Shown here one piece after another: positions 3,931-47,572 of a stretch of DNA of 64,000 nt. Source of the stretch: Candidatus Calescibacterium sp. (lineage in GTDB: Bacteria > Calescibacteriota > Calescibacteriia > Calescibacteriales > Calescibacteriaceae); the NCBI GenBank assembly GCA_025060505.1, contig JANXBU010000007.1, positions 1 to 64,000 on the forward strand, written 5' to 3'. Each line of letters opens with the position of its first letter. Position 1 is the first letter of the stretch. The notes below the pieces were generated by a model. It saw nothing but the letters and a program-made list of their open reading frames with translations, ran no database searches and was not told the origin of the DNA. The translations under genes were made by a program, and so were the position numbers.

Positions 3931-6900
3931 TTACTTTTGAGAAATATAAATCAACTTCCTTATTCTTAGAACAATAAGCAAAACAAAGATTGATACGACT
4001 GCTTCAAGATCAAATGAAGAACAACCACTGGAGCTTCTTTGCCCAGAAAATAGATCAGACCTACTTTCATAATTGAATATATTTTCATTCGCATCAGCAA
4101 AAAGCTGTGGAGCCGGGGCAAGAGTTCCACAGGCTCCAACAACATTACCACCTGAGGACTCAGAGAGCGTCAGAGGCGCAACTGAAACAGATACTGTTAT
4201 ATCAGCTGTGAGCGGTGTAGAGAACTCATCAAATCCGCCAGCGGATACTATTATATCTTGAACGTTTTTGAGTCCGCATGTGTTCTCCGATATCTCAGTG
4301 ATGTATATATCATAAAGACCGTTTCCAAAGCTATCGGTTGAAGCAACAAGAATAAGCTTTCCATCGCTTCTGGTAACAAATGAAGCTTTACCAGCGCTGA
4401 AAGCAGATGATCCTGAGTTTCCGAGTTCGTTTGAACCTCCACCAAGCAGATTCATCTGTAATATATTTCCGTCTGTATCAAATTTTATGAGAATGATGTC
4501 AGAAGTTGGAGGTATAGAGTCTGTTCTACCAACTATAATAAAGTTTCCATCTGGCGTTTTTGATATTGAGTGTCCATACTCGTGACTTGATGTAGAATAC
4601 CCCCAACCAACAACTTTCTTCCATATAACTCCCCCATCTTTATCAATCTTACCAAAGAAGATATTGTAGTCATCTGAACCGACAGATGATCTGAGTGACC
4701 CCAAGAATATCGAGTTTCCATCTTCTGCTTCTACAATAGATGGAGCATCATCATCCTGAGGACCACCAATAGACTTTAACCATAGCAAATTACCGTTCTC
4801 ATCAACCTTCATTATAAAACCATCGTTACCAGAACCCACCCTGAAGCTCTGTGTTATACCTGTTATTATATAGTATCCATCTGATGTTTTTATTATTGAT
4901 GATGGTTGATCAGAAGCTGAACCATATATCCTTTTTGCCCAAATTTTGTTCCCGTTTGAGTCAAGTTTCACGAGTATCACATCATGCGATGTTGAAGCAA
5001 CATTTGACCGAACCAGAACCAAGTAACCCCCATCTGATGTTTGAACAACACCTCTACCAGCATCATCAGTAGTGTAGTCTATCCTTCTTATCCACAAGGT
5101 TGTTCCAGAAGAAGATATTTTAGCAACAACCGCATCTCGGTTAAGCAGTGGACTATATGTACCAACAATCACAAAATTCCCGTCTGAATCTTGAATAACA
5201 GCTCTTGCATCATCTGATGTATTTAATGCTCCCAGAGTTTTTGACCATGATAGATTTAGATTGCTGTTGAACCTTAGGATATACATATCACCAGATGAAT
5301 CAGATATCTGTGTTGAACCCACAACGACCAAACCATCATCTGCTGTTCTTACAGCCTGATACGGAATATCCCCACCTGTTCCGCCAACTGCTATTGATAT
5401 AGGTGTATAAGCATAACACATTGAATATTCTCTCGGTCTTTGGACTAAGTTTGAAGGAGCTGGAGTTCCAATTGATGGATTAATAAACTGTGAAACTACC
5501 GCCGGAAAATTTTCAGAGAAAGATGCCGATACAACAATTGAGTTCTGTATATTTTCATTACATCCAAGCACCCCATCTTCTGAAAGCTTCAAAACATATT
5601 TATCAAGATTTCCAAAGTTATTCGTTGTACCAACCACAAGAATCTCTCCACTTTCATTTTTTATAACAAAATTTCCTATTTCATTCAAAGATGATTTTCC
5701 TATTGTTTTTGTCTGCTCAACATTCCCAGAGTTATCTATTTTCACAAGATATATATCTTTTCCAGCTGAAAAACTCGATGTTTCTCCAACAACGATATAC
5801 TTTCCATCTTTTGTAGGAGATATTGATTTTGCTATATCATCTCCGCTCCCGCCAACTAATCTGCTCCATGAAACAGTTCCATTACTTTGAATTTTCGTTA
5901 TCAAGACATCACGGTTTGGAGATACTCCGGAAGCACCGACAATAATGAAACCTCCATCACTTGTTGGGATCGCGTACTCTGGAATATCATCCGTTGCGCT
6001 TCCGATCGTCTTTGCCCAAACAAGACCAAAAGCCTGTGTTAACTTGACCGCAAATATATCATATCCACCAGCACCAAAAGAGTTTGTTTTACCAACAACA
6101 AGATACCCCCCATCAGAAGTTTCTACAACAGCTTTAGCAGAATCGTATTGCGCTCCACCAATAACTAATGCTAACGACAAACTAAAGGCATTACTGAGTT
6201 TTACTATCATCATATCCGAGCAAGTTCCACCACAAGTTTGACCAAAACTGTAGGTTTCTCCAACAACAACATAGCTTATACTCATTCCAAAATAATCCTG
6301 TAAAGATGAGAATGCTATGTCTGATAAAGAACCGCCTATAAATCTTGGAGTCGCACTACCATCTGCTCCAAACCTTACAAACAACATATCAGAACAATTG
6401 CCTCCGCAATTTCCACCGAAGCTATATGTCTCGCCAGAAATCAGAAAACCTATGTATGGGACCCCAGTTTCAACTGCTGGGGTTATATGGTAAGCCCTAT
6501 CTATATTTGCTCCTCCCAGAGTTCTTACATAAATAGTTGCACCACTTGGGTGAATCTTGGTGACCATTATGTCTTCATTACCGGCTCCAAAACTTGTTGT
6601 AGTTCCCACAATAAGGTATCCACCATCAAGATAAAGGCTTGTTCTCAAGCTAAGTGGCACTTGCACGATTCCATAGGCTATATCATTCCCCACGCCAGAT
6701 ATAGATTTTGCAAAAGCACCAAAACCCTCAACTGAAACTACATTTGAAAACGGACCCGAACCAGTTGTGTTTTTAGCATAAACTCTGTAGAACTTTGACA
6801 TGTTAGAATATGTATAGTCAACATAGTGTGTTACCGAAGGAGGCAGAAACGTTATCTGAGTAAAGTATACACCATCATTTGACCTTTCCAAAACGAAACT

Positions 6901-9333
6901 AGCAACGTTCGAAGATTGTACAGGATATTCCCACCTCAAAGTTGCATAAGAAACGCCCCAAGAATAAACTGTAAGAGAAGGGGAGTAGCACGGAGATGTA
7001 TTTTCATCAAAGTAGAAGTTACAATTGTTATCTATACCGTCACAAGTATTATCAGGAATAGAAGGGTTAATATTCACAGCGGAATCGTTGCAATCTCCTA
7101 ATCCTAATTGACTCCCCACTGTTATCATACCAGGATAAATCACCAAATCCACACACACAGATACATTGTTCGGAGCATATAAATCTCCATCCACATCCGT
7201 ATATCCCCAACTCTCTACATTACCACTACAATCATTGTCTAATACATCGTTGCAATTCAACGCAGCTCCAGGATAAACACTACTTGAGTTATCGTTACAA
7301 TCCGCAGGCTTGGGTATCGGTGTATACCCCAACGGCATCACATTCGCACACTGACTCACAGGCGTCGTCCATCCATCTCCATCCTGATCCTCATAATACC
7401 ACATCTCCACATGTCCTGAACAATCCTCATCCAATGCATTATTGCAGTTCAACGCAGCTCCAGGATAAACACTACTTGAGTTATCGTTACAATCACCTCC
7501 CGGTATCGCTACATATGTCGCATTGTTCGGTGCATACGGATTCAAACAGCTTATACTACTACCTCCCACAGGATAGTATCCATCTACATCTCCATCCAAA
7601 TACCACCTCGTACCAGGATTCATCCGGCTATCTCCATCATTACAATCTCCACTCGTTGATACTAGCTCGGAACCCAACTTGTATCCCAACGGCCTCATAC
7701 ACTGCAACTGCGTCACTCCACTTGAGTATCCATCTCCATCCATATCACTATACCACACAGTACCTGGATTTATTGCTGGACTTGTATCATCACAGTCAAG
7801 AGCGTTTGAAACATATCCCGGAGGTTGCGAAGCTGCCTGTATTGAAGATGCTGGATTTCCGAAACCATCTCCATCAAGATCTCGATAGAATGTTGGCAAG
7901 CCAGCTCCCTCGTCCACCAAACCATTACAGTTATCATCTACACCGTTTATAATTTCTACCGCGCCCGGTTTAACATTTGAACTCGAATCATTGCAGTCAA
8001 ATGAATTCATAACATATCCATTAGGCTTTACACATCCCTGTGTTAAAGGAGAAGGACTACCATAACCATCTCCATCTGAATCAATATAGAACGTAAGTAA
8101 AACACCTTCATCTATTTGACCATTGCAGTTATCATCTATGAAATTACAAAACTCTGCCGCACCGGGTTTCGTTTCCGAACTCGTATCGTCACAATCATTT
8201 GTTCCAGAAGCATCTGAAATAGCTATCAGACCATATGAAATTTCATTTACGCAGGTCGAAACACTATTAGGAGAGTATTTGTCACCATCCAAATCCCTAT
8301 AAGCAAAGAATTCAACTTTTCCGTCACAATCATTATCAAAGTTATCAAGGCAGTTCAAAGGAGCAGTTGGAAAAACTTCTGCTCTTGAATCATCACAATC
8401 ACCAAAGCCAAAAATAAGATCTATAGGCTTCAGAGTGCTATCCTCTAATTTCAAAACACAAACAGGTGCAGAAGAAGATGCAAAACCATCTTGATCTTTG
8501 TCTTCATACACAAAAAATCCATCGGAACCATCACAATCAGAATCTATACCGTCACCGCAAGCATCTTGAGCTTCTGGATGTATGTTCTTATCTAAATCGT
8601 TACAATCAAAAAGCGGAACACCATTTTGTTGTGAATACTTGAGCTGACCTTCTGTAACATAGTTTGGAAAGCTGTTTATCCCATATATACTAACACCAGA
8701 AGGATATGTATCTCCATCAAAGTCAAAGAAAAAGAGAGTTGGATTAATATCCAACTTCACCCAAGCGGTCATACTTGGAATATAGTTGAACTTGCGAGAA
8801 AACGTCTTTACAATCTTCCCACCATCTTCCGTGTGTATCTTTATGTAATATATCTTTTCATCTCTTGCTGGTATTGAAAAGTCTACATAGTACAAGTTCT
8901 CACCCTCAACAGCTTTGAATTCAGTTTGTTTATCAATATTTCCAATAAGAACAGCTTTCTCACAATTCAAGTCCGCTTCTTCTCCGGCAACCTTCCAGAT
9001 ATAGAAGTTATCACATTTTTTGAGCTGATCTGTTGTCAGAAGAAATGATGTGACTCTTTCCATGAACTTCTTTCCTCCAAGCTCCCCATATCTTATCTGC
9101 TCATATATCTCTTCATCTACTATGGGTTCGGAGGGTATCTGACCTTCCAGAACAATCACCTTCAAGACCAAATTTGAACGCTTTATTCTTTCCACATCTT
9201 CCTTGATAAAAACAGCTCTCACCTTCATTCTGAAGTCACCCTCTTTTCCTCTAACAACACAACTGTACTGAACAAACAAAACAACAAATGCCAAAAGAAC
9301 TAAAAGATTCTTGAACTTATTTGTGATTTTCAT
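3931..9333 (-). CDS. Giant exported repeat protein: MopE-like acidic repeats, FN3 domain, two seven-blade propeller arrays, CTERM-like tail
   Basis: This 1800-residue protein starts with a signal peptide (hydrophobic residues 9-25). Residues about 200-785 hold ten DC(N/D)D...PGA...DNDCDG units, each with a DxDGDGY-type loop. These are the acidic putative metal-binding repeats of MopE-like surface proteins (PF11617 type) and would bind Ca2+ or another cation. An FN3-like domain follows (about 785-875, LRWEYPVQ... to FYRVYAKN). Then come 14 units of the pattern GGYLVVGxTxSFG...DIxxxKL, arranged as seven plus seven (about 876-1298 and 1311-1684). Each set is followed by a Cys-containing segment with IVVSA or IIVSA. 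The C-terminus has SSSGCSS, a hydrophobic helix and basic residues, like a CTERM sorting tail. A strong AGGAGGTGAGG site precedes the ATG, which overlaps the upstream stop by 4 nt. Probably a cell-surface or secreted protein. Confidence 0.85.
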   Translation of the reverse strand: MKITNKFKNLLVLLAFVVLFVQYSCVVRGKEGDFRMKVRAVFIKEDVERIKRSNLVLKVIVLEGQIPSEPIVDEEIYEQIRYGELGGKKFMERVTSFLLTTDQLKKCDNFYIWKVAGEEADLNCEKAVLIGNIDKQTEFKAVEGENLYYVDFSIPARDEKIYYIKIHTEDGGKIVKTFSRKFNYIPSMTAWVKLDINPTLFFFDFDGDTYPSGVSIYGINSFPNYVTEGQLKYSQQNGVPLFDCNDLDKNIHPEAQDACGDGIDSDCDGSDGFFVYEDKDQDGFASSSAPVCVLKLEDSTLKPIDLIFGFGDCDDSRAEVFPTAPLNCLDNFDNDCDGKVEFFAYRDLDGDKYSPNSVSTCVNEISYGLIAISDASGTNDCDDTSSETKPGAAEFCNFIDDNCNGQIDEGVLLTFYIDSDGDGYGSPSPLTQGCVKPNGYVMNSFDCNDSSSNVKPGAVEIINGVDDNCNGLVDEGAGLPTFYRDLDGDGFGNPASSIQAASQPPGYVSNALDCDDTSPAINPGTVWYSDMDGDGYSSGVTQLQCMRPLGYKLGSELVSTSGDCNDGDSRMNPGTRWYLDGDVDGYYPVGGSSISCLNPYAPNNATYVAIPGGDCNDNSSSVYPGAALNCNNALDEDCSGHVEMWYYEDQDGDGWTTPVSQCANVMPLGYTPIPKPADCNDNSSSVYPGAALNCNDVLDNDCSGNVESWGYTDVDGDLYAPNNVSVCVDLVIYPGMITVGSQLGLGDCNDSAVNINPSIPDNTCDGIDNNCNFYFDENTSPCYSPSLTVYSWGVSYATLRWEYPVQSSNVASFVLERSNDGVYFTQITFLPPSVTHYVDYTYSNMSKFYRVYAKNTTGSGPFSNVVSVEGFGAFAKSISGVGNDIAYGIVQVPLSLRTSLYLDGGYLIVGTTTSFGAGNEDIMVTKIHPSGATIYVRTLGGANIDRAYHITPAVETGVPYIGFLISGETYSFGGNCGGNCSDMLFVRFGADGSATPRFIGGSLSDIAFSSLQDYFGMSISYVVVGETYSFGQTCGGTCSDMMIVKLSNAFSLSLALVIGGAQYDSAKAVVETSDGGYLVVGKTNSFGAGGYDIFAVKLTQAFGLVWAKTIGSATDDIPEYAIPTSDGGFIIVGASGVSPNRDVLITKIQSNGTVSWSRLVGGSGDDIAKSISPTKDGKYIVVGETSSFSAGKDIYLVKIDNSGNVEQTKTIGKSSLNEIGNFVIKNESGEILVVGTTNNFGNLDKYVLKLSEDGVLGCNENIQNSIVVSASFSENFPAVVSQFINPSIGTPAPSNLVQRPREYSMCYAYTPISIAVGGTGGDIPYQAVRTADDGLVVVGSTQISDSSGDMYILRFNSNLNLSWSKTLGALNTSDDARAVIQDSDGNFVIVGTYSPLLNRDAVVAKISSSGTTLWIRRIDYTTDDAGRGVVQTSDGGYLVLVRSNVASTSHDVILVKLDSNGNKIWAKRIYGSASDQPSSIIKTSDGYYIITGITQSFRVGSGNDGFIMKVDENGNLLWLKSIGGPQDDDAPSIVEAEDGNSIFLGSLRSSVGSDDYNIFFGKIDKDGGVIWKKVVGWGYSTSSHEYGHSISKTPDGNFIIVGRTDSIPPTSDIILIKFDTDGNILQMNLLGGGSNELGNSGSSAFSAGKASFVTRSDGKLILVASTDSFGNGLYDIYITEISENTCGLKNVQDIIVSAGGFDEFSTPLTADITVSVSVAPLTLSESSGGNVVGACGTLAPAPQLFADANENIFNYESRSDLFSGQRSSSGCSSFDLEAVVSIFVLLIVLRIRKLIYISQK
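7252..7494. repeat. Near-identical 51-bp direct repeats inside the MopE-like region
   Basis: The 51-bp segments 7252-7302 and 7444-7494 differ at one position. They lie 192 bp apart, exactly 64 codons, so the reading frame of the 1800-residue protein is kept. Each encodes the conserved core DCNDNSSSVYPGAALNCN. Other repeats of the protein are much more diverged, so this is a recent unit duplication or gene-conversion event. Confidence 0.9.
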
Positions 9334-43545: not shown

Positions 43546-43666
43546 CACACAAAATTTAGTTATAGATTTTTTTGTTTTAGCATAAACGAAAGTTTTGTTC
43601 TGCAACAAAGATCTGCTCTTTTAAAATCTGACAGAGTGTATGTTTCCCGCAGAGTGTGGGAACTTA

Positions 43667-43727
43667 TGATATTTTTGTTATCTTATTTTTTACCATTGAT
43701 ATTTTTGTTATCTTATTTTTTTACCAT
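43667..43727. repeat. Tandem 30-bp repeat in a promoter region
   Basis: Two adjacent copies (43667-43696 and 43697-43727) are identical except for one extra T in the second copy. On the minus strand each copy contains AATAAGATAAC, a -10-like element, so the duplication may double a promoter or operator upstream of the coiled-coil gene at 43545. Just to the left, cagagtgt occurs twice 18 bp apart (43632 and 43650) around a small TTCCC/GGGAA palindrome. Confidence 0.85.
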
Positions 43728-43820
43728 AGCACTTGATTTATTTCTGAGGGAGTTTTTGAGAAGAATTCTCTCTTTGAAGCTTTATAAAGTTAGCAGTATG
43801 TCAGATCTTATACTTTTGAT

Positions 43821-45065
43821 TCAATGTTTATTTGTTTCTCTTATGATCACACCACCTTTATTTTTTATGAACTCTGCGCATTCTTCCCATATTATGCATA
43901 GCGTTGAAGCAAAGTCGGAAAACTCTGCGCTTGTGTGAAGTACAGCAACTTTTCCCTTGTTTCTTACAAATTTTGAATCGACTGGATCAAATATTTCTGA
44001 GTATTCGGAATCGGAGTCCGACACACTTACTGCTCCCTTGTGGATAATTTTCCTACCGAGAACGGAGATAGCTGTTGGTTTGGAGAAATAGAAAGAAGAC
44101 CATCCGAAGTTTATCTCGAATTCTTCTTTTCCTATTGATTTCATAAATTCAGCGAGAACATCTACAACATATCCTTTCCAAACTCCGCCAAGATCCGGTT
44201 TCCCATCTCCTTTCCAATATATGTCGAAGTATGCAATGTCTTTCCTTGATTTTTCATATTTATCTACAAGCTCCTTTATCCTACTGGACATTATATTTTG
44301 AAAATAAAAATCAGAAAATTCTTTTGATATACCTGAAACAAACTCGTGAATTTTGATGAAATCTTTTTCGGAACAATTGCAAGTCAAGCACAGGAAAGTA
44401 TCTCCAACCTCGTAGCATCTAGAACTTTTGCTGGACGATATTTTTCGTTGGAAGATTGATTTTACTGATACATTCGCAATTTTTTCATCTATTGATTTTC
44501 TTATCGCAAAAGATTTTCTTACGGCTCTTGTTGTTGCCCAAGCAGATAGGGTTGCTCCTCTTATGTTCTTTATATCATGACCAACTGTAATTTTGTCTTC
44601 TGTTTTTTTGCCCTGAAATTGTTTCAAAAACATCTTTGACCTTATCTCTCCTCCTCTTGTTTCTCTGTATTTCAGAACTTCTATGAATCTAACTGAGTTA
44701 TCCGGATTTAGACACACCAGAAAGGTTATTGGCATCTCTTTTCCAATTTCATTTACAACAAAACAGTATCCAACAATTTGATCTGAACTGAAGATATAAG
44801 CACCCTGAAATCTAGTTTCATCAAAGCTCGTTTTTGCCGGTTTCATCAGCTCCTCGAATTTTTCCATAGACTTTATATCAACTTCAACTAAAGCGAGACT
44901 TGCTGAATTCTCAAATGTTTCTTGCGCAAGATTTATAACTTGGTTCTCATAACTTTCTGCATAAAGTGAGGGAACAAGAGAGATGGAGAATAGTAGAAAT
45001 CCAGACCTTATAAGCCAGCTCATTTTGTTTTTTATTTTATTTGTTTTTATGTTTACTCTCTCCAT
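43821..45065 (-). CDS. Exported fusion of an FMN-binding (flavinylation target) domain and an ApbE-like flavin-transferase domain
   Basis: From ATG 45065 (MERVNIKTNK, GGAG upstream) the protein has 414 residues. A signal peptide covers about 15-36 (ending SLYA). Residues 40-190 match FMN_bind proteins such as RnfG/NqrC: IVGYCFVVNE, ITFLVCLNPD, KYRETRGGEIRSKMFLKQFQG and DIKNIRGATLSAWATTRAV, where Thr172 of GAT is the expected FMN attachment residue. Residues 225-410 match ApbE FMN transferases: PDLGGVWKGYVVDVLAEFMK, GAVSVSDSDSEYSEIFDP and SAEFSDFASTL. Some usual ApbE residues are changed: the His of HIIDP is Glu, and the second Gly of the GG motif is Trp. A Cys group lies at 217-231. An upstream frame extension to 45197 would overlap the porin gene by 116 nt and is unlikely. 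It follows the Fur-box porin in an operon. Confidence 0.83.
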   Translation of the reverse strand: MERVNIKTNKIKNKMSWLIRSGFLLFSISLVPSLYAESYENQVINLAQETFENSASLALVEVDIKSMEKFEELMKPAKTSFDETRFQGAYIFSSDQIVGYCFVVNEIGKEMPITFLVCLNPDNSVRFIEVLKYRETRGGEIRSKMFLKQFQGKKTEDKITVGHDIKNIRGATLSAWATTRAVRKSFAIRKSIDEKIANVSVKSIFQRKISSSKSSRCYEVGDTFLCLTCNCSEKDFIKIHEFVSGISKEFSDFYFQNIMSSRIKELVDKYEKSRKDIAYFDIYWKGDGKPDLGGVWKGYVVDVLAEFMKSIGKEEFEINFGWSSFYFSKPTAISVLGRKIIHKGAVSVSDSDSEYSEIFDPVDSKFVRNKGKVAVLHTSAEFSDFASTLCIIWEECAEFIKNKGGVIIRETNKH

Positions 45066-45081
45066 CTCTCTCCACTCCCTC

Positions 45082-46587
45082 CTATAAGCCGAACGCGAAA
45101 CCAAAAAGGATAGCATGCTGATTTTCATTGCCCGAGGTATGTATATATCGCGGGCCAGATAAAAGTGTTGTGAATTCATAAGAAATTGAGAAAACAAACG
45201 TCTTTACCGGTCTGTATGCTATTCCTACGGTGTTTCTGAACTGACTTATATCAGCTTTTTGTTCCCGAGTTATATTCCCGTCTTTGAAATCAAGTGCTAC
45301 GATTGTATTCTTGTAACTAACATACTCCGGCCGGTCGAAAAGTATGAATTGCGATTCGCCATCAAAATCAAATACTGTTCCTTGCAGGAATGACGGGAAG
45401 AATTTGAATCTGAATAGAACCCATCCTCCCTGTTTAGTATCAGCAAGAGAAAGTTCTTTGACTTTTATTTCAGAGACAATCCCAGTTGGTACAATCACGG
45501 CTGTTCCGGTTGAGCTTTGATAGAATATAGTTGTTCCGGTTTTGTGGAAGGATTTTGAGATTATATCTTGAATGACAGTGGAGAGTTTTGTAAATTGAGT
45601 GAAAGCATACTCTCCTTCAAAATCGAAGGCTGAGATAGGTTCTGCTTTGAAGTCAATGGCTGCTGTCCATAAGTTTGCGGGTACGAGGAATGAAGGAGTA
45701 TATCTACCGAAGTACCCGGAGAATCCAAGTTCATATCCAAGAGCCGGTGCTACGAAGATTCTTCCTGCAAGGGCTTTTTCCTTTTTGGTGTCAAGTCTCG
45801 CGTTCCCGAATCTGGGTTTTATAACAGCTTCAAGTTTTGCTTGATTGTATTTTACTGTTGTTGTATCATCGATCTTTCTTTCATGTCCGCCGATCACGTA
45901 AAGTTCAAAATCATGTTCAAGTGTTACACCGTTGAGCACATAAGCTTCATACCCAAGCAAAGTTTCTCCCAGATCAAAGTTTCCGTTGAATCCAGCTCCG
46001 ATTTCCATCCAAGCTGTTTTATCTGGTAGAACTGTGGCATCTCTGACAGAAAGAGGTCTTCTCGCAGGTTCCCAGATGTCATCATCATGCAGTATGTTGA
46101 ATCTGCCAACAGGTGGTAGAATTCCGCCAACTCTGAATCTCAGAGCTCTTGCTATTTCAAACTCACCCCACATCTGCTCAAGCTTTATCTCGGAGCCGTG
46201 AGTCCCTTCTATTTCAGTTTTCGCTCTCAGTCCTCCCTGATACGGAGTTAGCTCTTCAACAAGCTCAAGTAACCCGAATCTTTCGAATTCAAGTTCAGTG
46301 TAGAATCTGAGTCTTTCTTTCACAGTAGCAGAAAATGTTGGGACTATTCTTCTTAGAGTGAATGTGGATATTGATTTGTTACCTTGTGTCAGGTATTCAT
46401 ACCGAACAGAACCATATCCACCGACAGATATTCCACCTTCACGCTCAACCGCGTATGTTTCAGATGCATCGGTTAATACTAGGATTACAGCAAGAGCAAG
46501 GAAGTTTGTAGCAAGTGATTTTGCCGATCTTTTGTTTGTTTTGTTTTTGATTTTCTTTACATCTCCTGTTTTGTTTCTGTTATTCAT
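45082..46587 (-). CDS. Outer-membrane beta-barrel porin (OprO/P-like), Fur-box controlled
   Basis: The 501-residue protein begins with a long basic N-terminus and a signal peptide (about 28-46, ALAVILVLTDASETYA). The mature start is GGISVGGYGSVRYEY, and alternating beta-strands follow to a C-terminal HAILFGFAFGL, the aromatic end that typifies outer-membrane barrels. The pattern FTLRRIVPTFSATVKERLRF, GGILPPVGRFN and EPARRPLSVRDATVLPDKTAW is that of phosphate-selective-porin-type (OprO/P) proteins. The ribosome site AAAGGAGGTGATC is a near-perfect match to the 16S 3' end. Two Fur boxes cover its promoter. The FMN-binding/ApbE gene starts 17 bp after its stop, so they form one operon. Probable uptake of iron or another solute; substrate unknown. 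Confidence 0.83.
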   Translation of the reverse strand: MNNRNKTGDVKKIKNKTNKRSAKSLATNFLALAVILVLTDASETYAVEREGGISVGGYGSVRYEYLTQGNKSISTFTLRRIVPTFSATVKERLRFYTELEFERFGLLELVEELTPYQGGLRAKTEIEGTHGSEIKLEQMWGEFEIARALRFRVGGILPPVGRFNILHDDDIWEPARRPLSVRDATVLPDKTAWMEIGAGFNGNFDLGETLLGYEAYVLNGVTLEHDFELYVIGGHERKIDDTTTVKYNQAKLEAVIKPRFGNARLDTKKEKALAGRIFVAPALGYELGFSGYFGRYTPSFLVPANLWTAAIDFKAEPISAFDFEGEYAFTQFTKLSTVIQDIISKSFHKTGTTIFYQSSTGTAVIVPTGIVSEIKVKELSLADTKQGGWVLFRFKFFPSFLQGTVFDFDGESQFILFDRPEYVSYKNTIVALDFKDGNITREQKADISQFRNTVGIAYRPVKTFVFSISYEFTTLLSGPRYIHTSGNENQHAILFGFAFGL

Positions 46588-46612
46588 TGTAATTGATCAC
46601 CTCCTTTTAATT

Positions 46613-46631
46613 GATATTGATTTTCATTTTC
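46613..46631 (-). promoter_or_regulatory. Fur box, promoter-proximal copy
   Basis: Read on the plus strand, this 19-bp site, GATATTGATTTTCATTTTC, matches 16 of 19 positions of the Fur consensus GATAATGATTATCATTATC. It begins just downstream of the -10 hexamer of the porin gene (46632-46637), so Fur bound here would cover the transcription start. It is 29 bp from the second box. Confidence 0.72.
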
Positions 46632-46662
46632 AATATAGACTAATACTGATTATCATTTTCAA
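46632..46662 (-). promoter_or_regulatory. Promoter of the porin / FMN-ApbE operon
   Basis: On the minus strand TTGAAA (46657-46662) and TATATT (46632-46637) are spaced by 19 bp, slightly longer than the optimum of 17. The start would fall near 46625. The two Fur boxes overlap this promoter, as expected for iron-dependent repression. Confidence 0.5.
46642..46660 (-). promoter_or_regulatory. Fur box, -35/-10 spacer copy
   Basis: This site, AATACTGATTATCATTTTC on the plus strand, matches 16 of 19 positions of the Fur consensus and includes the central ATTATCAT core. It lies between the proposed -35 and -10 of the porin promoter. On the other side it is 6 bp from the start codon of holB, which it might affect as well. 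Confidence 0.74.
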
Positions 46663-46666
46663 TTAG

Positions 46667-47572
46667 ATGATTTTCAAAAACTTTTATCAATTTTTTCGGG
46701 AGCGTCAAATTTATAGCGTGGATCTCAAAAGACTCTATCCTAATACATACAAAGTATTCGAAAGAATGGTCCAGAATCAGGAAATCAGAAACGCTTTTTT
46801 ATTCTATGGACCGCAGGGAGTAGGTAAAATTGATTTTGCTTTACATTTTGCAAAAAGTTTTCTCTGTGGTCTTATGCCTCCGTGCGGATTTTGTTCCGAG
46901 TGTGTTTATGAGAGTCATCCAGATATACTCATTGTCAGAAAATCTGCTGATGATGAGAGACTTAAGGTGGAAAGCGTTCGTTCTGCTATTGATTTTGCAC
47001 TTGTACCGCCATACTCATCCAGAAAGTTCATAATCATTCAAGATGCTCACCTGATGACACAACAAGGATATTCAGCTTTGCTCAAAGCTCTGGAAGAGAG
47101 CAAACCTTATACAACATATATACTTACAGCGTCAAAAATTGAGCTTATACCATCCACTATTGTATCAAGATGTGTCAAGGTCAGATTCTTCCCGAATATA
47201 AAGGAGCTTTTGGAGACAAAAATTCAGGAGAAAAATTTCCCCCAAGATGTCAATGAAATCCTGTATAACATATCTTATTTCAATTTTTCTGTTATTGAAA
47301 AGGATGAAGAAACCATAAGAAGAATCTGGAAGATACTGAGTTGTGTTATTAATCCAGAAGATTCAAGGGCAGAGTTTATCAAGCTTATCAACGAAATAAG
47401 AGAGATCCAAGAGGCACGTGATATACTTGATTCTCTTGAATCTTACTTGGTGAAGAATTCAGCAAAGCTCGGTAGTTTTTCAGTCGATCTTTGGGAGAAA
47501 ATAAGAACAGCTCGTAGAAACCTTGAAGTTTTTATCAATCCAAAAATTGTTCTTTTGTCCTTGGTATTCTGA
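46667..47572 (+). CDS. holB: DNA polymerase III delta-prime-like clamp-loader subunit
   Basis: The 301-residue AAA+ protein shows FYGPQGVGKIDFALHFAKSF (about 45-64), a zinc-binding Cys group CGLMPPCGFCSEC, HPDILIVRKSADDERLKVES, IIQDAHLMTQQGYSALLKALEE and the sensor/SRC motif IPSTIVSRCVKVRFF. In the P-loop, Lys is followed by Ile rather than Thr/Ser, as expected for a delta-prime subunit that does not hydrolyse ATP. It loads the sliding clamp with DnaX and HolA. Its ATG is only 6 bp from a Fur box of the divergent porin gene. tmk, often beside holB, lies 17 kb away. Confidence 0.87.
   Translation: MIFKNFYQFFRERQIYSVDLKRLYPNTYKVFERMVQNQEIRNAFLFYGPQGVGKIDFALHFAKSFLCGLMPPCGFCSECVYESHPDILIVRKSADDERLKVESVRSAIDFALVPPYSSRKFIIIQDAHLMTQQGYSALLKALEESKPYTTYILTASKIELIPSTIVSRCVKVRFFPNIKELLETKIQEKNFPQDVNEILYNISYFNFSVIEKDEETIRRIWKILSCVINPEDSRAEFIKLINEIREIQEARDILDSLESYLVKNSAKLGSFSVDLWEKIRTARRNLEVFINPKIVLLSLVF

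Follow-up and report, generated by a model that had tools for sequence, protein, structure and literature searches.

A porin gene and an FMN_bind-ApbE fusion gene behind Fur-like boxes in Calescibacteriota: a candidate reductive iron-uptake module

The porin-fusion operon and its Fur-like boxes

The window analysed here, a stretch of 64,000 nucleotides (64 kb; contig JANXBU010000007.1 of assembly GCA_025060505.1), belongs to a Calescibacteriota metagenome-assembled genome (MAG) of 2.28 Mb that is 86% complete and whose closest named relatives are Candidatus Calescibacterium nevadense (EM19/Calescamantes) and Bacterium HR19. Its minus strand carries, in this order, a distal and a proximal Fur-like box, a strong AGGAGG ribosome site, a porin gene and a gene for an exported protein in which an FMN_bind domain is fused to an ApbE-like domain. 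These features had been read in the original prediction as a self-contained flavinylated electron carrier with an outer-membrane pore, induced by iron shortage and a candidate for a periplasmic ferric reductase or a siderophore-like uptake system. On balance, we consider it probable that they form a reductive iron-uptake module, induced by iron limitation and equipped with a minimal, rewired flavin transferase that acts in cis.

The porin (45082..46587, minus strand) has 501 amino acids, including a signal peptide. It matched no Pfam profile, that of the TonB-receptor plug included, and was recognized by hhalign as related to linked porins of Pseudomonadota, barrels of the Porin_O_P/Porin_4 type (probability 98.8, E-value 1.2e-16, 340 columns), one of which matches both Porin_O_P and Porin_4. 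Since the barrel is a porin relative and not a TonB-dependent receptor, a reading as siderophore receptor was dropped and the siderophore-like uptake proposed earlier is unsupported. TonB-dependent receptors are almost absent from the five genomes of the family (G000-G004), with a plug domain found in two of them (G000 and G004), once each and at other loci.

The porin gene is separated by 16 intervening bases from the fusion gene (43821..45065, minus strand), which encodes 414 amino acids from ATG 45065, preceded by a GGAG-type ribosome site. The numbering of Thr172, the predicted flavin acceptor, and the exact start of the fusion hang on this ATG, which is favoured by the better ribosome site; orthologues start near Met15. 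The fusion is present directly after the porin gene in all five family genomes, with identities of 45-51%, and this adjacency strongly supports the predicted pairing of porin and flavoprotein. Among 386 sampled genomes, the full-length short fusion was detected in six, five from Calescibacteriota and one from Nitrospirota (the source of locus L027), a phylum in which the search covered two genomes.

The distal box, GAAAATGATAATCAGTATT (46642..46660, minus strand), overlaps a -10-like GATAAT (46654-46649) and is spaced 29 bp, start to start, from the proximal box, GAAAATGAAAATCAATATC (46613..46631, minus strand). Both 19-mers scored 16/19 against GATAATGATAATCATTATC, with no third such site in the window, and shuffled windows held on average 0.11 sites at 16/19, with 3 of 100 shuffles reaching two. 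Promoter-like and terminator matches in the region were no commoner than in shuffles. The pair of boxes described in the original prediction is confirmed, and a box of 16-17/19 lies upstream of the porin gene in all five family genomes. Fur-family genes were found in each of these genomes. In other phyla, boxes of at least 14/19 were present in 26 of 42 porin upstream regions, compared with 14 of the 251 remaining genes at these loci (p = 2e-15 by rank test, only indicative since related loci are not independent).

A genome-wide scan tolerating up to three mismatches returned few sites per genome. The sole other box kept in all five genomes lies at the gene of an FTR1 permease and scores 17/19, but overlaps the predicted start codon (ATGAAAATCATT), where coding sequence may inflate the match. 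This permease has an N-terminal cytochrome c domain in all four cases examined. The conserved promoter boxes and the apparent co-control with the cytochrome c-FTR1 permease strongly support iron control of the porin-flavoprotein pair, presumably through Fur binding at the porin promoter. The porin-fusion and FTR1 operons would form an apparent Fur regulon, perhaps the main iron route of the phylum.

Two further observations concern the FTR1 genes. The box holds the predicted start (GAxAATGAAAATCATTxTC), with no ribosome site upstream, at L106:9053, L107:4777, L108:3842, L109:5902 and L097:118, which suggests either a leaderless transcript or a misplaced start. In one MAG, the FTR1 5' end and the same box occur on two contigs (G004:C37:118 and G004:C65:141), probably through assembly redundancy. 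Next to the window operon (46667-46719), the listed start of the divergently oriented DNA polymerase III delta' gene is 7 bp from the distal box. A likelier start is GTG 46719, behind a GGGAG site, which makes the intergenic region bigger than the table of open reading frames implies.

The two domains of the fusion protein

The N-terminal half of the fusion contains an FMN_bind domain (PF04205; 44514..44744, minus strand) above the Pfam cut-off (27.9 bits against 22, E-value 3.9e-6), and this is the single FMN_bind domain found in the window genome. In an AlphaFold2 model (pLDDT 88.5, from a 37-row alignment), residues 1-195 superpose on RnfG (9eri_G, Z 15.2) and NqrC (Z 10-13). The predicted FMN acceptor, Thr172 (codon 44550..44552, minus strand), lies in DIKNIRGAT, with the motif K-N-I-R-G-A-T. 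Gly170, Ala171 and Thr172 do not vary among the six short fusions, the most divergent of which is 31% identical to the window protein. The five Calescibacteriota fusions share [K/R]-N-I-[R/K]-G-A-T and the L027 fusion reads K-V-V-R-G-A-T, whereas the FMN_bind proteins of Pseudomonadota nearly all have D-x-x-[S/T]-G-A-T.

The C-terminal half (residues 211-414; 43824..44435, minus strand) has a predicted minimal ApbE fold. It matched 19 ApbE/Ftp entries with Z-scores of 18-20 (197-204 residues aligned, rmsd 2.3-2.9 A), the best being Treponema pallidum Ftp (Z 20.0), and Vibrio cholerae ApbE (6nxi) reaching Z 19.3 over 203 residues with an rmsd of 2.7 A; unrelated structures in the same comparison scored about 7 and below. 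The window protein gave a 33-residue match to the Pfam ApbE profile (PF02424) over DLGGxxKG that stays below threshold (1.8e-4, 21.6 bits against a cut-off of 25.6), a cut-off passed by the orthologues in L026 (31.6 bits) and L027 (36.8 bits). A phmmer search of the single fusion against the Protein Data Bank (PDB) returned no match, and a profile search against the PDB reached ApbE at 0.013 and RnfG at 0.36. Because Pfam matched only the middle or later part of ApbE, the N-terminal half of the domain seemed at first to be missing. This idea was dropped, since 203 of the 204 residues in the model can be aligned with full-length ApbE. The domain is compressed and not truncated: with about 204 residues in place of the usual 300 or so, it is some 100 residues shorter, complete but miniature. 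Thus, one exported polypeptide does combine both domains, as Pfam indicates for FMN_bind and the predicted structure for the ApbE fold.

Several ApbE active-site features are retained in the short fusions, namely Ser347, DxGxxxKG, Asp384 (43914..43916, minus strand), which is the equivalent of ApbE Asp285, and Thr388, which preserves the D-x-x-x-T metal motif together with Asp384. The catalytic triad of V. cholerae ApbE is Ser241-His257-Asp285, with His257 acting as general base and counted among three conserved active-site residues (PMC12052999). In the profile alignment to 6nxi, RYSHIIDP stands opposite EYSEIFDP, which places Glu357 (43995..43997, minus strand) where ApbE has His257. The ApbE-like domain of the original prediction holds as a fold and lacks the catalytic histidine equivalent. 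That histidine is retained in the full-length fusion of locus L018 and in separate ApbEs encoded beside an FMN_bind gene (Acidobacteria, L028 and L029). A candidate substitute base is His377 (43935..43937, minus strand), seven residues ahead of Asp384. All six short fusions have it, whereas the three full-length ApbEs aligned have other residues there.

Partner genes, distribution and iron importers

A protein with four predicted transmembrane helices (4-TM; 150-215 amino acids) and an invariant HxH motif is encoded in all five Calescibacteriota genomes (for example L026:8680-9150). Its gene adjoins the system in three of them (one divergent), as well as in Nitrospirota, Acidobacteriota and genome G033, and lies further along or on a different contig in the remaining two. 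The Calescibacteriota and Acidobacteriota versions are joined by hhalign (E-value 8e-6), and no family was found for them in Pfam, NCBIfam or PHROGs. The predicted structure of the 4-TM protein (pLDDT 89.9) resembled helical bundles only in a generic way (best Z 8.4, Foldseek E-value >1) and could be assigned to no fold, so that haem or quinone binding is a guess. Pseudomonadota loci combine the porin and FMN_bind genes with PepSY, and none was seen at the Calescibacteriota loci. As the 4-TM protein occupies the place of PepSY, we infer by analogy that it, too, delivers electrons from the membrane, and regard the family as a candidate new membrane electron donor.

In the FMN_bind tree, Calescibacteriota, Nitrospirota, Acidobacteriota, G033 and one gammaproteobacterium fall on one side (support 98/99) and the Pseudomonadota porin-FMN_bind-PepSY proteins on the other. 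Fusion to ApbE, or adjacency with it, was seen solely on the Calescibacteriota side; several branches are long and the details are unsure. At L027, a Nitrospirae MAG locus, the FTR1, porin, haem-motif barrel, fusion and 4-TM genes stand together. Its 15 kb contain two boxes of 16/19, one upstream of FTR1 and the other upstream of the porin (0 in 200 shuffles). Between porin and fusion, L027 encodes (5476-6897) a predicted barrel of 473 amino acids with an N-terminal CxxCH (FSRQTDRSCSSCHVIWPG), resembling single-haem cytochrome-porin fusions. In L018 (G033:C30, 9267-14164), a 499-amino-acid FMN_bind-ApbE fusion with a full-length, His-containing ApbE is followed by the 4-TM HxH protein and FeoB; this locus realizes the same single-chain design in a more canonical form.

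As to iron importers, FTR1 is present in the five family genomes, where it is unlinked to the porin-fusion pair, and FeoB_C was matched in none of these MAGs, which are 82-86% complete. Three distant genomes show linkage to iron-importer genes: FTR1 in L027, FTR1 again in L021, where porin, FMN_bind and 4-TM genes lie nearby, and FeoB in L018.

Elsewhere in the window, a near-perfect short tandem duplication (TGATATTTTTGTTATCTTATTTTTTACCAT, twice) lies at 43660-43730 and separates the fusion operon from a small open reading frame downstream. At 3931-9333, an exported protein of 1800 amino acids carries many repeats of the type DCNDxxxxxxPGAxxNCN, which resemble MopE-type metal-binding repeats. 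Comparable repeat proteins are found in relatives (L017:14932-16476).

Proposed function and comparison with known systems

Ferric iron dissolves poorly under aerobic, circumneutral conditions. Calescamantes are inferred to be aerobic heterotrophs that respire under such conditions, in springs of about 80 C (PMC4791363). When iron is low, Fur would leave its two boxes and the porin-flavoprotein operon would be transcribed. The porin may then admit ferric iron or small ferric chelates to the periplasm, where the FMN_bind domain, with FMN most likely on Thr172, would hand electrons to ferric iron. The quinone pool would probably supply the electrons by way of the membrane-embedded 4-TM HxH protein (or, in the Pseudomonadota version, the PepSY proteins would deliver them), and the resulting Fe2+ would be imported through the box-bearing cytochrome c-FTR1 permease, a route proposed because FeoB was not found. 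The miniature ApbE at the C terminus would serve, in cis, as the flavin transferase for the N-terminal half of the chain, its active site having been rewired so as to do without His257.

Our confidence differs between the parts of this model. Iron-regulated iron acquisition, the well-supported part of the function first predicted, appears highly probable from the sequence data. Ferric reduction by the flavoprotein is reasonably probable, and covalent FMN on Thr172 made by the attached ApbE domain is slightly favoured. Only tentatively do we propose the fullest version, in which a minimal cis-acting ApbE without the canonical general-base histidine has co-evolved with an altered motif to flavinylate its own carrier domain and, with the porin and the cytochrome c-FTR1 permease, provides the main, perhaps the only, iron route.

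Several points weigh against the proposed module. The Fur boxes are consensus matches only, and the one at FTR1 overlaps a predicted start codon. The 64 kb of the window encode no electron donor; the host has its 4-TM gene on a different contig, at a locus that lacks a good Fur box. The MAGs are incomplete, at 82-86%. The acceptor motif fails the canonical D-x-x-[S/T]-G-A-[S/T], having lost the Asp at -6 and the Ser/Thr at -3, half of its four fixed positions; the predicted FMN_bind domain and its invariant Thr172 stand. Finally, each short fusion has a residue of its own at the His257 position (Glu in the window protein; Lys, Leu, Thr, Val and Arg in the other five), and the loop before it is shortened by eight residues; a position so unconstrained implies that the transferase could be dead.

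This last point leads to the principal alternative, that the ApbE-like domain is a catalytically dead pseudo-transferase with a flavin-binding or structural role, FMN or FAD being bound non-covalently or FAD shuttled to the FMN_bind domain while iron reduction is kept. The freely drifting histidine position, the loss of some 100 residues and the motif without its Asp and Ser/Thr would all fit. However, Gly-Ala-Thr172 is invariant, the remaining active-site residues are retained, and no second ApbE was matched in the five family genomes or in that of L027. In addition, the H257G change in V. cholerae ApbE reduces, and does not abolish, binding or activity, and an Asp-to-Ala change in the flavinylation motif has only a minor effect (PMC12052999). 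The missing second ApbE and the invariant Gly-Ala-Thr argue for a rewired cis enzyme and the drifting histidine for a pseudo-enzyme; sequence alone does not settle which, and we regard the pseudo-enzyme as unlikely. Covalent self-flavinylation at Thr172, as first proposed, remains plausible despite the lost base and motif positions. The self-contained carrier of the original prediction is only partly borne out, since the 4-TM partner and FTR1 are encoded elsewhere in the window genome.

Alternatively, the flavoprotein could be an iron-sparing electron carrier that, when iron is short, replaces periplasmic haem proteins in respiration, with a porin importing some unrelated nutrient. A flavodoxin-for-ferredoxin logic has been proposed for flavinylation (PMC8238504), and the inferred aerobic respiration of Calescamantes (PMC4791363) would suit it. 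Nonetheless, iron permeases recur beside the system or under shared control with it (FTR1 in all five genomes of the family, L027 and L021; FeoB in L018), and other iron importers are scarce, which makes this explanation quite improbable. A respiratory or extracellular conduit sending electrons to external acceptors, to which the porin adjoining a periplasmic carrier and the CxxCH barrel of L027 might point, is very improbable, as the Fur boxes suit assimilation and the operon encodes no multihaem protein, only a single-haem c'-like cytochrome gene coming next in two genomes.

If the reductive iron-uptake module is real, it would show how a deep, uncultured lineage of oxygen-respiring thermophiles obtains iron without siderophore receptors or FeoB, and extend flavin-based ferric reduction to a porin-coupled design common to several phyla. 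It would also be a test of whether a transferase joined to its substrate in a single chain can do ApbE chemistry without the proposed general base, and a self-flavinylating fusion would be a thermostable single-chain carrier of 414 residues, useful as a tool.

A literature search, with most subscription journals outside its scope, returned no paper joining porin, FMN-binding, PepSY and Fur, and the main text of PMC8238504 uses neither the word 'porin' nor the word 'fusion'. The closest functional parallels are the PepSY/DUF2271/ApbE clusters, which in Caulobacter are Fur-repressed and needed under chelation, as judged from fitness in EDTA (PMC3751524, PMC12004947). The Caulobacter PepSY/DUF2271/DUF4198/ApbE cluster (CCNA_03155-03159) and the VciB-type PepSY proteins of ferric reduction resemble our model in that a flavin-linked reduction of ferric iron, located in the periplasm and repressed by Fur, supplies an iron importer, and PepSY partners the porin-FMN_bind pair in Pseudomonadota. 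Here, in contrast, FMN_bind is fused to ApbE, the porin is a constant partner and the 4-TM HxH protein stands in the place of PepSY. Flavinylation clusters are known to co-occur with iron transporters, including Fur-repressed PepSY clusters and P19-FTR1 clusters with FMN_bind (PMC8238504). The latter likewise join an FMN_bind protein with an FTR1 permease, but are mostly Gram-positive and have a separate FMN_bind gene, whereas the system described here has a porin and an FTR1 with a cytochrome c domain, unlinked in Calescibacteriota.

At the protein level, V. cholerae ApbE (6NXI) and T. pallidum Ftp share with the C-terminal half the fold, DxGxxxKG, the Ser241 and Asp285 equivalents and the D-x-x-x-T metal motif, and differ in size, in having His257 and in being separate from their substrate. 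RnfG and NqrC share the fold of residues 1-195 (Z 10-15), including the N-terminal helix, but the window fusion has its own transferase attached, and Rnf/Nqr genes were not seen beside it. ApbE is also fused to its target in the trypanosomatid fumarate reductase (PMC12052999), which thus resembles the window protein in having transferase and target in a single chain; that fusion, however, is eukaryotic and intracellular, with an N-terminal ApbE, and is a reductase enzyme and not an exported FMN_bind carrier. What is new in Calescibacteriota is the combination of a constant porin, a 4-TM partner, a base-less miniature ApbE in cis and two operons that seem to make up a Fur regulon and to be the phylum's main route to iron.

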